A DNA stretch of 64,000 bases from Nitrososphaerota archaeon (GTDB lineage Archaea > Thermoproteota > Nitrososphaeria > Conexivisphaerales > DTJL01), in assembly GCA_021324115.1 (NCBI GenBank), contig JAJPJS010000008.1, positions 22,160-86,159 on the forward strand. Reading direction: 5' to 3'. This document shows positions 7,660 through 40,407 of the stretch, one piece after another (the stretch's first letter is position 1; each line of letters begins with the position of its first letter). Made by a program: the position numbers and the translations under genes. The notes under the pieces are model-generated. The model saw only the letters and a list, made by a program, of their open reading frames with translations, had not been told where the DNA came from and made no database searches.

Positions 7660-8712
7660 TTGACACTGGCATTCGTAGGACTGGGGGTTCAGGGCGTTCT
7701 TGGCGCGCCGGTAGGCGGTATAAGGTACCTGAGGTCCTGCGATACGATCTACGCTGATATGTACACCAGTCCTTGGCAGGATGGCATGCTTGATGAGCTG
7801 CAAACAGAAGTTGGGAAACCCATTGTCAAGGCACCCAGAATTATGATCGAAGATGGAAGGAAGATTTTGCAAGAAGCCAAATTACAATGTGTGGGTTTCG
7901 TGACCGTAGGAGACCCCTTGCTTGCGACTACGCACATCATAATAAAGGAAAGGGCGAAGGAGATGGGAATACCGGTCAAGATATTTTACTCCTCCAGCAT
8001 AGTGAATGTAATATTTGGAGAAACCGGATTGCATATCTACAAACTTGGAAAGGTGATAACAGCGGTCAAAAACGACAGGTCCGTGGAGGATTCGCTGTAC
8101 CCCGAGGTCAAAGACAATCTGATAAGAAAGAGGCACACGCTCGTATTGCTGGAGTATGATCCTGACACCCAGGCACATATCAGACCGGATGAACTTCTAC
8201 AAAAATTCAAGCAGATGGAGATGAACTACAAACTCGGTGTGTTCGGTGAAGAGAGATTGATAATAGTTGCCTCAAGGCTGGGCTGGCCTAATCAGTCAAT
8301 AACGGTGGGATTCCTAAATGAATTAATGAACAAGGATTTCGGTCCACCCCCCCACAGTGTGATAATTCCATCTGAGTTGCACTATACAGAGGCTGATGCA
8401 CTCTCATCGCTCACGAACGTCAGAAAGGATATCCTTGAACGGGGCAACACCTCCTTGAATCCACCTGAAGCAACGCTTGTTAACAAAGCCGTACACAAGA
8501 CTCTGCTGGCCCTCGAGAAGGGTAGGGCTTATGCAAGGGAGAATGGGATAACAAATCTTGATGATATATTCGAAAACGTAGAATGCTATCTATCAGACGC
8601 TCAGCGTTTCCTTCTGGACAACAAACGCGAACTCGCGCTGATACAGGCAGGCTACGCAGAAGGTCTTCTGGACTCGCTGAGGTTCCAAGGCGTGCTTAAA
8701 TTTGATTGGTAG
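7660..8712 (+). CDS. dph5: Diphthine synthase (Dph5) fused to a DUF357 domain
   Basis: Residues 1 to about 260 are a tetrapyrrole-methylase-fold diphthine synthase, which trimethylates the modified histidine of EF-2 using SAM. The glycine-rich start FVGLGVQG and the GDPLLATTH motif (residues 84-92) are family hallmarks. Normal Dph5 ends near residue 260. Here about 85 more residues follow, including VECYLSDAQRFLLDNKRELA and IQAGYAEGLLDSLRF, resembling the archaeal DUF357 helical domain usually found alone. The start is TTG 7660. The 3' end overlaps the convergent truD gene by 17 bases. The role of DUF357 is unknown; the fusion hints at a link to translation factor modification. Confidence 0.9.
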   Translation: MTLAFVGLGVQGVLGAPVGGIRYLRSCDTIYADMYTSPWQDGMLDELQTEVGKPIVKAPRIMIEDGRKILQEAKLQCVGFVTVGDPLLATTHIIIKERAKEMGIPVKIFYSSSIVNVIFGETGLHIYKLGKVITAVKNDRSVEDSLYPEVKDNLIRKRHTLVLLEYDPDTQAHIRPDELLQKFKQMEMNYKLGVFGEERLIIVASRLGWPNQSITVGFLNELMNKDFGPPPHSVIIPSELHYTEADALSSLTNVRKDILERGNTSLNPPEATLVNKAVHKTLLALEKGRAYARENGITNLDDIFENVECYLSDAQRFLLDNKRELALIQAGYAEGLLDSLRFQGVLKFDW

Positions 8713-38724: not shown

Positions 38725-39912
38725 ATGAGTTACTATCCAAGACGAAAACTCGTGATGTTGCCCGGACCGACCAATGTGCCCGACAGGGTAACAAATGCGA
38801 TGCTGAAGGCCATTGTAAATCACAGGGGCCCCGACTTCCGTCCGCTACTCAATTCCATCAAGGGCAAACTGCAGAGCACTCTCGAAACTACGGGCGACGT
38901 AGTGGTGTTATCATCTTCGGGTACGGGTGGGGTCGAAGCATCGGTGAAAAACATAGTAAAACGGGGCGATAACATAATCGTTCCTGTATTTGGGGAATTC
39001 AGCGGGAGGCTGGCAGAGCAGATCAAGGAGGAGGGGGGGAATGTTACGAAGGTGGAGACCCAGCCGGGTACCGCGCCGACGCCTGACATGATCGATGATG
39101 CCGCAAAGAGGATCGGCCAGGTAAAGGCGATCTATGTGGTGTATAACGACACATCTCCCGGGACCACCTACAGGTGGTTGAAAGAAGTTGGGGATATTGC
39201 TCACGCCCATGGAGGTTTTGTTATCGCAGACTCAATTTCAATTGTGGGGGGTGATGAACTTCCTCAGGACAAATGGGGGGTGGACATGGTCGTAGGCGCT
39301 TCCCAGAAATGCATCGGCGCCCCGCCCGGCATAGCATTTATCACAATGAGTCAAGCAATGTCGAAATATGTGACTTCCAACGTACCCACAACGACTTACT
39401 TTAACCTCTCCAAGTATTTGGAATTCATGCAGCACGGAGAAACACCATTCACACCCGCGCTTCCGCTTTTCTATGCATTTGACGAAGCGCTCACAATGGT
39501 TCAGGAGGAAGGCATGCCGAAGAGAATAGAAAGGCACAGGACTACAGCTTCTGCCTTTTACGATGCGCTGACCTACGGTGGACTTCATCCATTCGTTGAA
39601 CCGAAGGTTCGTTCAAACGTGGTGGTGACCGTAAAGTTGCCCGACGGCGTAGACGACACCACATTCAGGGGCACGGTTGAGGACAAATTCAACGTAATTC
39701 TAGCAGGTGGGTTTGGCCCGCTGAAAGGCAAAATCTTCAGGATAGGGAACATGGGCGATGTCAACAGATACCACGTGATAGTTACCCTGAACGCGATCGG
39801 GAGTGCCCTCGGACTCATGGGAAGGCAGGTCGATGTCACTGGAATGGTAAGGTTAGCAGAAGAAAGGCTGAAACAGCTCGCGCCGGTTCCGAATCCATCA
39901 ATTCCAGCGTAG
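38725..39912 (+). CDS. Class V PLP aminotransferase (alanine/serine-glyoxylate type)
   Basis: 395 residues. MLPGPTNVPDRVTNAMLKAI, the HRGPDF segment, ADSISIVGGDELPQDKW with D169, and SQKCIGAPPGIAFI with PLP lysine K195 are typical. Members use alanine or serine as amino donor to glyoxylate or pyruvate; relatives act in serine/glycine metabolism, photorespiration or ureidoglycine breakdown. It follows the molybdenum hydroxylase gene by 48 bases. With the D-2-hydroxyacid dehydrogenase it could complete a serine route; pairing with a purine-type hydroxylase would also be logical. Substrate is not determined by sequence. Confidence 0.9.
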   Translation: MSYYPRRKLVMLPGPTNVPDRVTNAMLKAIVNHRGPDFRPLLNSIKGKLQSTLETTGDVVVLSSSGTGGVEASVKNIVKRGDNIIVPVFGEFSGRLAEQIKEEGGNVTKVETQPGTAPTPDMIDDAAKRIGQVKAIYVVYNDTSPGTTYRWLKEVGDIAHAHGGFVIADSISIVGGDELPQDKWGVDMVVGASQKCIGAPPGIAFITMSQAMSKYVTSNVPTTTYFNLSKYLEFMQHGETPFTPALPLFYAFDEALTMVQEEGMPKRIERHRTTASAFYDALTYGGLHPFVEPKVRSNVVVTVKLPDGVDDTTFRGTVEDKFNVILAGGFGPLKGKIFRIGNMGDVNRYHVIVTLNAIGSALGLMGRQVDVTGMVRLAEERLKQLAPVPNPSIPA

Positions 39913-39914
39913 CC

Positions 39915-40022
39915 TTATCCGCAGCATGAATTTTTCGTATCCGCACCCGAATCAGAAACAGCAGAGCTATCATCGTTGCAACAGCAACAGCAACAGCAGG
40001 TTCCACAGTCGTTCTTTGCCAA
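39915..40022 (-). CDS. Putative 35-residue poly-cysteine peptide
   Basis: A short minus-strand frame from TTG 40022 to TAA 39915-39917, starting MAKNDCGT, then seven consecutive cysteines, an acidic Asp/Ser middle and a final SCCG: ten cysteines in 35 residues. GGAGGTG lies six bases before the TTG, a strong ribosome binding site. The stop is directly after the convergent aminotransferase stop, as expected of a real gene. The cysteine run is coded by alternating TGC/TGT, made from three CAACAG hexamers, so a chance repeat is the main alternative. No family is known to me; binding of soft metal ions is a reasonable guess. It follows a cysteine-containing winged-helix gene. Confidence 0.5.
   Translation of the reverse strand: MAKNDCGTCCCCCCCNDDSSAVSDSGADTKNSCCG
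39979..39996 (+). repeat. CAACAG hexanucleotide microrepeat (3 copies)
   Basis: Three perfect CAACAG units, followed by a partial CAG. On the minus strand it encodes part of the cysteine run (TGC/TGT). Confidence 0.7.
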
Positions 40023-40059
40023 GTTAGCCACCTCCAGCACGTATGGGTCAGAGCAGTAA

Positions 40060-40293
40060 TTATTGACTTGCGCAAGCAGCGCTATAGCCATCTCTGGACT
40101 TCCTGATCAACCTGTGTGCGGTCAATCTGCGAAGTATCCTTGAAAGTACTTCCTGGTGCAGCGCGGTCTCACTTCTTATGTCGGTAAATGTAACGTTCGA
40201 CCTATTTCTATACACTATATTACAGACGAGAAACTCCCTTTCCGTCAGCTCCACGCACTCCCCGGGCCCCTCAGTCGAACAGCAAAACGGCAC
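40060..40293 (-). CDS. Small cysteine-containing winged-helix protein
   Basis: 77 residues from GTG 40293. MPFCCSTEGPGEC precedes a winged helix: LTEREFLVCNIVYRNRSNV, then TALHQEVLSRILRRLTAHRL and wing IRKSRDGYSAACAS. Five cysteines (C4, C5, C13, C24, C74) suggest metal or redox sensing. ATAAATAT at 40316-40323 is a TATA box whose expected transcript start is close to 40293, so translation would be leaderless; ATG 40314 would lie inside the promoter, and GTG 40254 is the shorter option. The poly-cysteine peptide gene starts 38 bases after its stop, so both could be one metal-responsive unit. This functional reading is inference. Confidence 0.6.
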   Translation of the reverse strand: MPFCCSTEGPGECVELTEREFLVCNIVYRNRSNVTFTDIRSETALHQEVLSRILRRLTAHRLIRKSRDGYSAACASQ

Positions 40294-40315
40294 GATCGGA
40301 TTGGCAGACCACACA

Positions 40316-40323
40316 TATTTATT
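40316..40323 (-). promoter_or_regulatory. TATA box of the winged-helix/poly-cysteine unit
   Basis: On the minus strand ATAAATAT is placed for a transcript start near 40293. It lies in the divergent gap shared with the FKBP gene. Confidence 0.5.
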
Positions 40324-40407
40324 GACTTGTTTGGTGGAAACTGGGCATTCTTTCGCGACAACTTTTAAAACTCGTCAAAGTTGGGTCATTCCATCTGGGT
40401 GAAATGC

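Follow-up and report, generated by a model that had tools for sequence, protein, structure and literature searches.

Several described systems resemble the locus reported here. In the sections of the reports on which we draw, SmtB/SmtA of Synechococcus and AzuR/NmtA of Anabaena each consist of a small winged-helix repressor of the ArsR family and a small cysteine-rich metal-binding protein, a metallothionein (PMC4353254, PMC8790569). Among ArsR repressors that respond to As(III), types with Cys32/34/37, Cys95/96/102 and Cys15/16/55 were distinguished in the cited part of PMC11868830, where the position of these three-cysteine sites at different spots of the ArsR fold was interpreted as independent evolution on several occasions. 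According to the relevant passages of PMC6205960, channels of the AqpS type that are paired with ArsC are established arsenic genes, as is arsM.

In the window, i.e., the whole stretch of 64,000 nucleotides of archaeal DNA that was analyzed, a regulator gene is followed by a gene for a cysteine-rich micro-peptide (Table 1). By analogy, the principle of a sensor combined with a metal-binding peptide is already known from SmtB/SmtA. Compared with SmtB/SmtA and AzuR/NmtA as presented in the sections cited above, the regulator here lies outside the ArsR/SmtB profile, the peptides have no Pfam match, are 15-38 aa long and carry up to ten adjacent cysteines, and the regulon includes arsM.

Table 1. 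Coordinates of the two-gene unit and its control elements in the window.
Feature	Position	Strand	Remarks
Box 1, GTCAATAAATA	40316..40326	-	TATA-like promoter element, proposed operator of the regulator gene
Winged-helix regulator	40060..40293	-	77 aa, five Cys (C4 C5 C13 C24 C74); leaderless GTG start; 26-row alignment
Box 2, GTCAATAATTA	40057..40067	-	Proposed promoter/operator of the peptide gene; includes the regulator stop codon (TAA)
Shine-Dalgarno motif GGAGGTG	40029..40035	-	Contains in-frame GTG (40031), an alternative start
Cys-rich micro-peptide gene	39915..40022	-	TTG start at 40022; 35 aa, ten Cys, seven consecutive

The peptide and the regulator in the window were confirmed by direct reading of the genes, the boxes and the motif. 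The peptide sequence, LAKNDCGTCCCCCCCNDDSSAVSDSGADTKNSCCG, contains the ten cysteines in 35 residues, with seven in a row, that the original prediction had reported, and its stop ends at 39915. The strong Shine-Dalgarno motif described at the same time is present six bases before the TTG; the in-frame GTG inside it is also a possible start and would give 38 aa. The cysteine run is encoded by a near-perfect 6-nt repeat. An aminotransferase class V gene (38725-39912; Pfam Aminotran_5, E 2e-17) is convergent to the peptide gene and ends two bases beyond the peptide stop, in agreement with the tight fit noted earlier. The longest ORF of the regulator (84 aa) starts from an upstream GTG just 12 nt off box 1. 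Because both the comparison with relatives and the box spacing support GTG 40293, the shorter leaderless version was favored as the probable one. With this start, the five cysteines previously ascribed to the regulator hold, and GTCAATAAATA lies 33 nt before the GTG, as in relatives, which bears out the TATA box placed for a leaderless start.

The distribution of the unit was studied. The window protein alone, used as a query over the named genomes, gave no match; a scan with a 3-row alignment gave three loci. Two of the three other genomes of the same family have the regulator (41-45% identity), in each case followed by a small cysteine-rich ORF in another frame (MCICICPCTCCETDEEKNTA and MKEACCNTCSCCCETNEKNEPGKQ). 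When the three-row regulator profile was run over 400 genomes of the class, 26 strong matches (E<1e-17) to small proteins were obtained in 25 genomes belonging to three families (3/4 genomes in f1, 18/34 in f11 and 4/5 in f19). Weaker matches were domains in larger proteins and were excluded from the regulator count. The 26-row profile, run over 398 genomes of the phylum, revealed one further small cysteine-bearing regulator outside the class (G467); the loci of larger-protein matches (L156-L162) had no box. In G467, the exact box stands 34 nt upstream of the regulator, and a second GTCAATAA is found at +245, followed by GGAGGTGA and MDHCCPDCCPYCCPP. The 44 genomes of this second class contained three more regulator loci (G499, G598 and G608). 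All three have a second box as well as a cysteine peptide (VDYHCPSCCPFCCCPP, MDCPCCGLCPCCDPPF and MGCPCCDVCPCCGPPRAVNTFS, respectively); the first box of G608 has one change (GTCAACAAATA). All four second-class loci were found by regulator similarity alone, and all four carry a cysteine peptide. At the G499 locus (L168), the regulator frame is broken mid-gene, by sequencing error or decay, while the boxes and the peptide are intact.

A separate cysteine-rich peptide follows the regulator at 20 of the 26 in-class loci and, over both classes, at 24 of 30. The peptides are about 15-38 aa long, with cysteine runs of up to ten residues in mixed TGC/TGT codons; ten adjacent cysteines occur in G351 (VKIETLALDCCGSGCCCCCCCCCCESASSKETTKSE) and eight in G095. 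A short head precedes the run, one more CC pair often follows, and most in-class members have a hydrophilic tail. Most peptide genes of relatives have a GAGGTG-type motif a few nt 5' of an ATG, TTG or GTG. The six in-class loci with no separate peptide are those of G213, G295, G348, G350, G370 and G397. In G213, G350 and G370, a boxed arsenic-type gene (arsM or a MIP channel) occupies the place where the peptide would stand, and G348 has an ArsC-like gene in convergent orientation, which carries a box of its own. In G295 (L024, G295:C50:19623), a poly-cysteine tail (SLCLCCCC) is fused to the regulator. On comparative grounds, the cysteine peptide and the winged-helix gene are a conserved pair and neither an artefact nor an accident.

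The regulator family was then compared with known ones. In the AlphaFold2 model of the window protein (pLDDT 86.1), a winged helix stands behind an N-terminal beta-hairpin that bears the CC and C13 cysteines. The model matched MecI, ArsR, CadC and MarR types with Z scores of about 9-11 and no preference, the values for ArsR 6j05 (9.4) and CadC (9.2) being tied with those of MecI, MarR and many others. Because of these ties, the fold does not single out the ArsR/SmtB family. The ArsR/HTH_5 Pfam model was matched by none of the 26 members at E<=0.01, and the window regulator scored 17.1 bits with NCBIfam NF033788, for which the cut-off is 55. Membership in the ArsR/SmtB family, which the fold would fit, was therefore rejected as unsupported by sequence. 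Nor did the 26-row profile match any PDB sequence at E<=0.01. Six cysteine columns of the alignment were kept in 21, 24, 17, 22, 24 and 24 of the 26 members, as counted from sequence only; at column 36, where one of the most conserved cysteines stands in relatives, the window regulator has Tyr. The second-class regulators have cysteines placed at the C-terminus. Like the As(III)-responsive ArsR proteins, the regulator is a winged-helix protein at arsenic genes, and its N-terminal vicinal cysteines recall the Cys15-Cys16 site of CgArsR; unlike them, as far as the cited part of PMC11868830 describes them, it has different cysteine placements and no ArsR Pfam match among its 26 members. By analogy, this family would be another independent case of an As(III) site, on another branch.

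Each of the 26 in-class regulators has the exact 11-mer GTCAATAAATA in front of it, in a TATA-like position and usually with A or G 5' of the 11-mer, whose flanks are not conserved. The box collections were assembled by motif search, and the invariance of the searched letters within them is therefore by construction; the informative result is the presence of the exact 11-mer at every one of the 26 regulators. At the 23 loci where it was measured, the distance from box to regulator start was 33-45 nt, the start nearest 36 nt from the box being taken where several were possible. Such spacing would be expected if the box is a TATA element and the message is leaderless. A GTCAATAA was found 3' of the winged-helix gene at 21 of the 26 in-class loci and at all four second-class loci. 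The second box lies 5' of 19 of the 20 in-class peptides, and the cysteine run begins 42-68 nt downstream of it. The regulators commonly end in SQ or GQ because box 2 dictates it: at the 26 in-class loci, AGT-CAA-TAA serves as last codons plus stop and as part of the peptide promoter. A third copy of the 8-mer GTCAATAA lies in the window at 8295 on the + strand.

Exact boxes in the 25 regulator-bearing genomes amount to 39, of which 26 precede a regulator, 9 arsM and 1 a MIP channel. Of the remaining three, two lie inside ORFs (G000:C4 and G350:C25), and one (G302:C146) is some 180 nt upstream of an ORF that looks unrelated. Of the 16 f11 genomes that have no regulator, 15 also lack an exact box. 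In genome G342, from which the regulator is likewise absent, a single box lies close to an unrelated ORF; in G387 (82% complete), in which no regulator was detected, the one box copy stands before arsM. The original prediction contained neither the shared box nor the link to arsenic and named no metal.

The genes behind the box were examined. The regions upstream of arsM were checked by tblastn, and the box was found before 11 of the 12 arsM copies of these families, 34-55 nt before the start, the exception being a second copy in G348; the boxed arsM of G308 is merely 45% identical to the query. Of 24 other ArsM/methyltransferase matches, none had the box within 60 nt (Fisher P 2e-8, kinship being ignored). 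For the four arsM copies scanned, the best NCBIfam model was NF008823 (arsenite methyltransferase) with 245-270 bits; the copy of G387 passed the curated cut-off of 263, and the other three were just below it. The nearest PDB sequences to the boxed arsM products were arsenite methyltransferases. MIP-channel genes, whose identity was confirmed by Pfam, likewise stand behind a box or a box variant in G213, G348 and G370, as does an ArsC-like gene of G348. The box and the channel gene of G370 are separated by a small three-cysteine ORF. The ArsC-like proteins are low-molecular-weight phosphatases by match, far below the curated cut-offs. ACR3-type transporters were found near the boxed arsM in G319 and G308. 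As in the AqpS-ArsC and ArsM systems, the box of relatives thus precedes a MIP channel with an ArsC-like protein, and arsM; unlike those systems in the passages cited, the unit has a different regulator plus a poly-cysteine peptide (PMC6205960). Dispersed chromosomal arsenic genes under one regulator, as proposed here, were also reported for TtSmtB of Thermus thermophilus, which, unlike the present regulator, belongs to the ArsR/SmtB family and for which the cited part of the paper mentions no cysteine peptide (PMC5658604).

In the window genome itself (2.14 Mb), only the regulator and the peptide are boxed. One exact copy of GTCAATAAATA was found beyond box 1, inside an ORF on C4, and represents a chance site. 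No ArsM was found at E<=1e-25. A canonical arsR-acr3-arsC operon with its own ArsR and no box lies on contig C8 (L150, G000:C8, 1074-3042), i.e., the two-gene unit is not part of the classical ars operon of this organism but exists alongside it. Arsenic genes under the same control element, the mark of an ars regulon, were found in relatives and not in the window genome. Because the window genome has no boxed arsenic gene, the arsenic assignment of its unit rests on relatives.

Considered together, these comparisons suggest that the two-gene unit is probably a response system for arsenic, as a thiophilic metalloid. The original prediction of a sensor with a cysteine-rich buffer or scavenger is supported by the occurrence of the pair in two classes under a common box that also stands at arsM, MIP-channel and ArsC-like genes. 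Alternatively, the same architecture could have a different soft metal (Cu(I), Zn, Cd or Hg) as its primary ligand, arsenic genes having been recruited into the regulon in certain lineages only. Poly-cysteine peptides are good ligands for Cu(I), Zn and Cd. In addition, neither the f1 nor the second-class members have a boxed arsenic gene, and no recognizable arsenic gene was found beside the unit at either same-family locus or at any of the four loci of the second class. In G350, an unboxed heavy-metal P-type ATPase gene and a gene for a DUF1326 protein lie upstream of the regulator (L082, 1003-4215). However, all recognizable boxed detoxification genes are of arsenic types (arsM, MIP, ArsC-like), and no P-type ATPase or cation-efflux gene stands behind a box in the stretches read; primary binding of another metal is therefore considered unlikely.

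From the genes, the box, their conservation and the set of boxed genes, all of which are established, we infer repression rather than activation, As(III) as the ligand and chelation by the peptide. Most likely, the regulator is an autoregulated sensor of a thiophilic metalloid, As(III), that does not belong to the ArsR family and drives an arsenite-binding micro-peptide. The 77-aa winged-helix protein would bind GTCAATAAATA, which overlaps the TATA position, in both its own promoter and that of the peptide, and would thereby block transcription. Since the box sits at the TATA position, a repressor that competes with the basal transcription machinery is suggested, activation also being possible. 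Binding of As(III) by the regulator cysteines (N-terminal CC, C13, C24 of helix 1 and the C-terminal Cys) would release the protein from DNA, giving a leaderless regulator mRNA and a short peptide mRNA led by the Shine-Dalgarno motif. The shape of the 35-residue peptide, a thiolate run with a hydrophilic tail, appears to suit three-thiolate binding, and one peptide may chelate up to three As(III), each in three-coordinate As-S3 form. Such chelation would buffer As(III), protect other thiols and reset the switch. In relatives, the regulator would additionally control a metalloid channel as well as the methylation of arsenite and the reduction of arsenate.

Instead of serving as a buffer, the peptide could play a regulatory or chaperone role, handing As(III) to ArsM or a pump in the manner of ArsD, or stripping the metalloid from the regulator to end the response. 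It is encoded beside the regulator under the same box, and the CCCC tail of G295 is fused to the regulator itself, as might be expected for such a role. However, the peptide is also present in G001, where neither ArsM nor ACR3 was found, and therefore has no fixed client. The role of a chaperone or regulatory partner seems quite improbable, and arsenite chelation by the peptide is retained as the preferred reading.

The frequency of cysteine-rich short ORFs was determined in the neighborhood DNA, comprising 334,483 nt in 33 fetched stretches with the window locus excluded. Twenty-three short ORFs with >=6 Cys and >=18% Cys were found; 18 of them follow a GTCAATAA box at a distance of up to 70 nt, and another directly follows a winged-helix gene. 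The 70-nt stretches behind boxes make up 0.6% of strand-nt, which gives a binomial P of 7.5e-36, a value that overstates independence because the loci are related. The 19 loci with long cysteine runs use 95 TGC and 65 TGT codons. The 6-nt repeat in the window would also fit a microsatellite accident with no product. This reading was rejected as hardly credible because the cysteine-rich frame is kept at the same place, behind a Shine-Dalgarno motif and in mixed codons, at 24 of 30 loci; the check on relatives proposed in the original prediction showed the frame open at all 24 peptide loci, with run lengths differing by whole codons. Finally, poly-cysteine leader ORFs with an attenuator role have reportedly been published for mycobacteria, but a cysteine-responsive, ribosome-stalling leader peptide was dismissed as having almost no probability here because the next gene in the window is convergent rather than a co-directional target, and among the 19 other loci the neighbor is not conserved, several having a convergent gene 4-21 nt downstream.

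Ten of the 24 peptides were scanned against Pfam and matched no family at E<=0.1, hence no metallothionein profile; the metallothionein trait of being small and rich in cysteine is seen in the window (10/35 residues) and at 24 loci with such peptides. The statement in the original prediction that no such family had been described stands in that neither component reaches a curated Pfam or NCBIfam family and no description of the regulator/peptide pair was found in the open-licence full texts searched. On balance, it appears rather likely that these genes represent a new class of gene-encoded arsenic-binding micro-peptides of 15-38 residues with up to ten adjacent cysteines, occurring in at least two classes of one archaeal phylum under new non-ArsR metalloid sensors, by way of an almost invariant 11-base TATA-replacing operator that also governs arsM, metalloid-channel and ArsC-like genes. 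Phytochelatins are non-ribosomal, and unlike them the peptide here is gene-encoded. In the passages of PMC3838358 considered, phytochelatins are short cysteine-rich arsenic chelators, as is proposed for the peptide. If the proposal is true, archaea use ribosomally made poly-cysteine micro-peptides where plants use phytochelatins, the peptides rank with the smallest gene products that bind metal and have a length that gene finders commonly overlook, and the regulator is a new scaffold for As(III) sensing. Given how exact the proposed operator is, the regulon can be deduced from genome sequences, and the arsenic biology of uncultured Nitrososphaeria-type archaea is therefore directly testable.

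Some minor features of individual loci were also observed. A 26-residue match to the regulator alignment was found on a contig binned as Microcella (L048, JAOASR010000043.1), possibly mis-binned or matching by chance. In G331 (L095, 6278-7891), a gene resembling TnpB/IS605 by eye lies between the regulator and the peptide, both of which keep their boxes. A number of f11 loci (L085, L087, L088, L092 and L096-L100) share downstream synteny, with genes that resemble, by eye, those for an aminotransferase of 450 aa and for a protein of the Alba type, which do not always occur together. At some of these loci, a convergent cyclophilin-like gene, likewise assigned by eye, lies in between.
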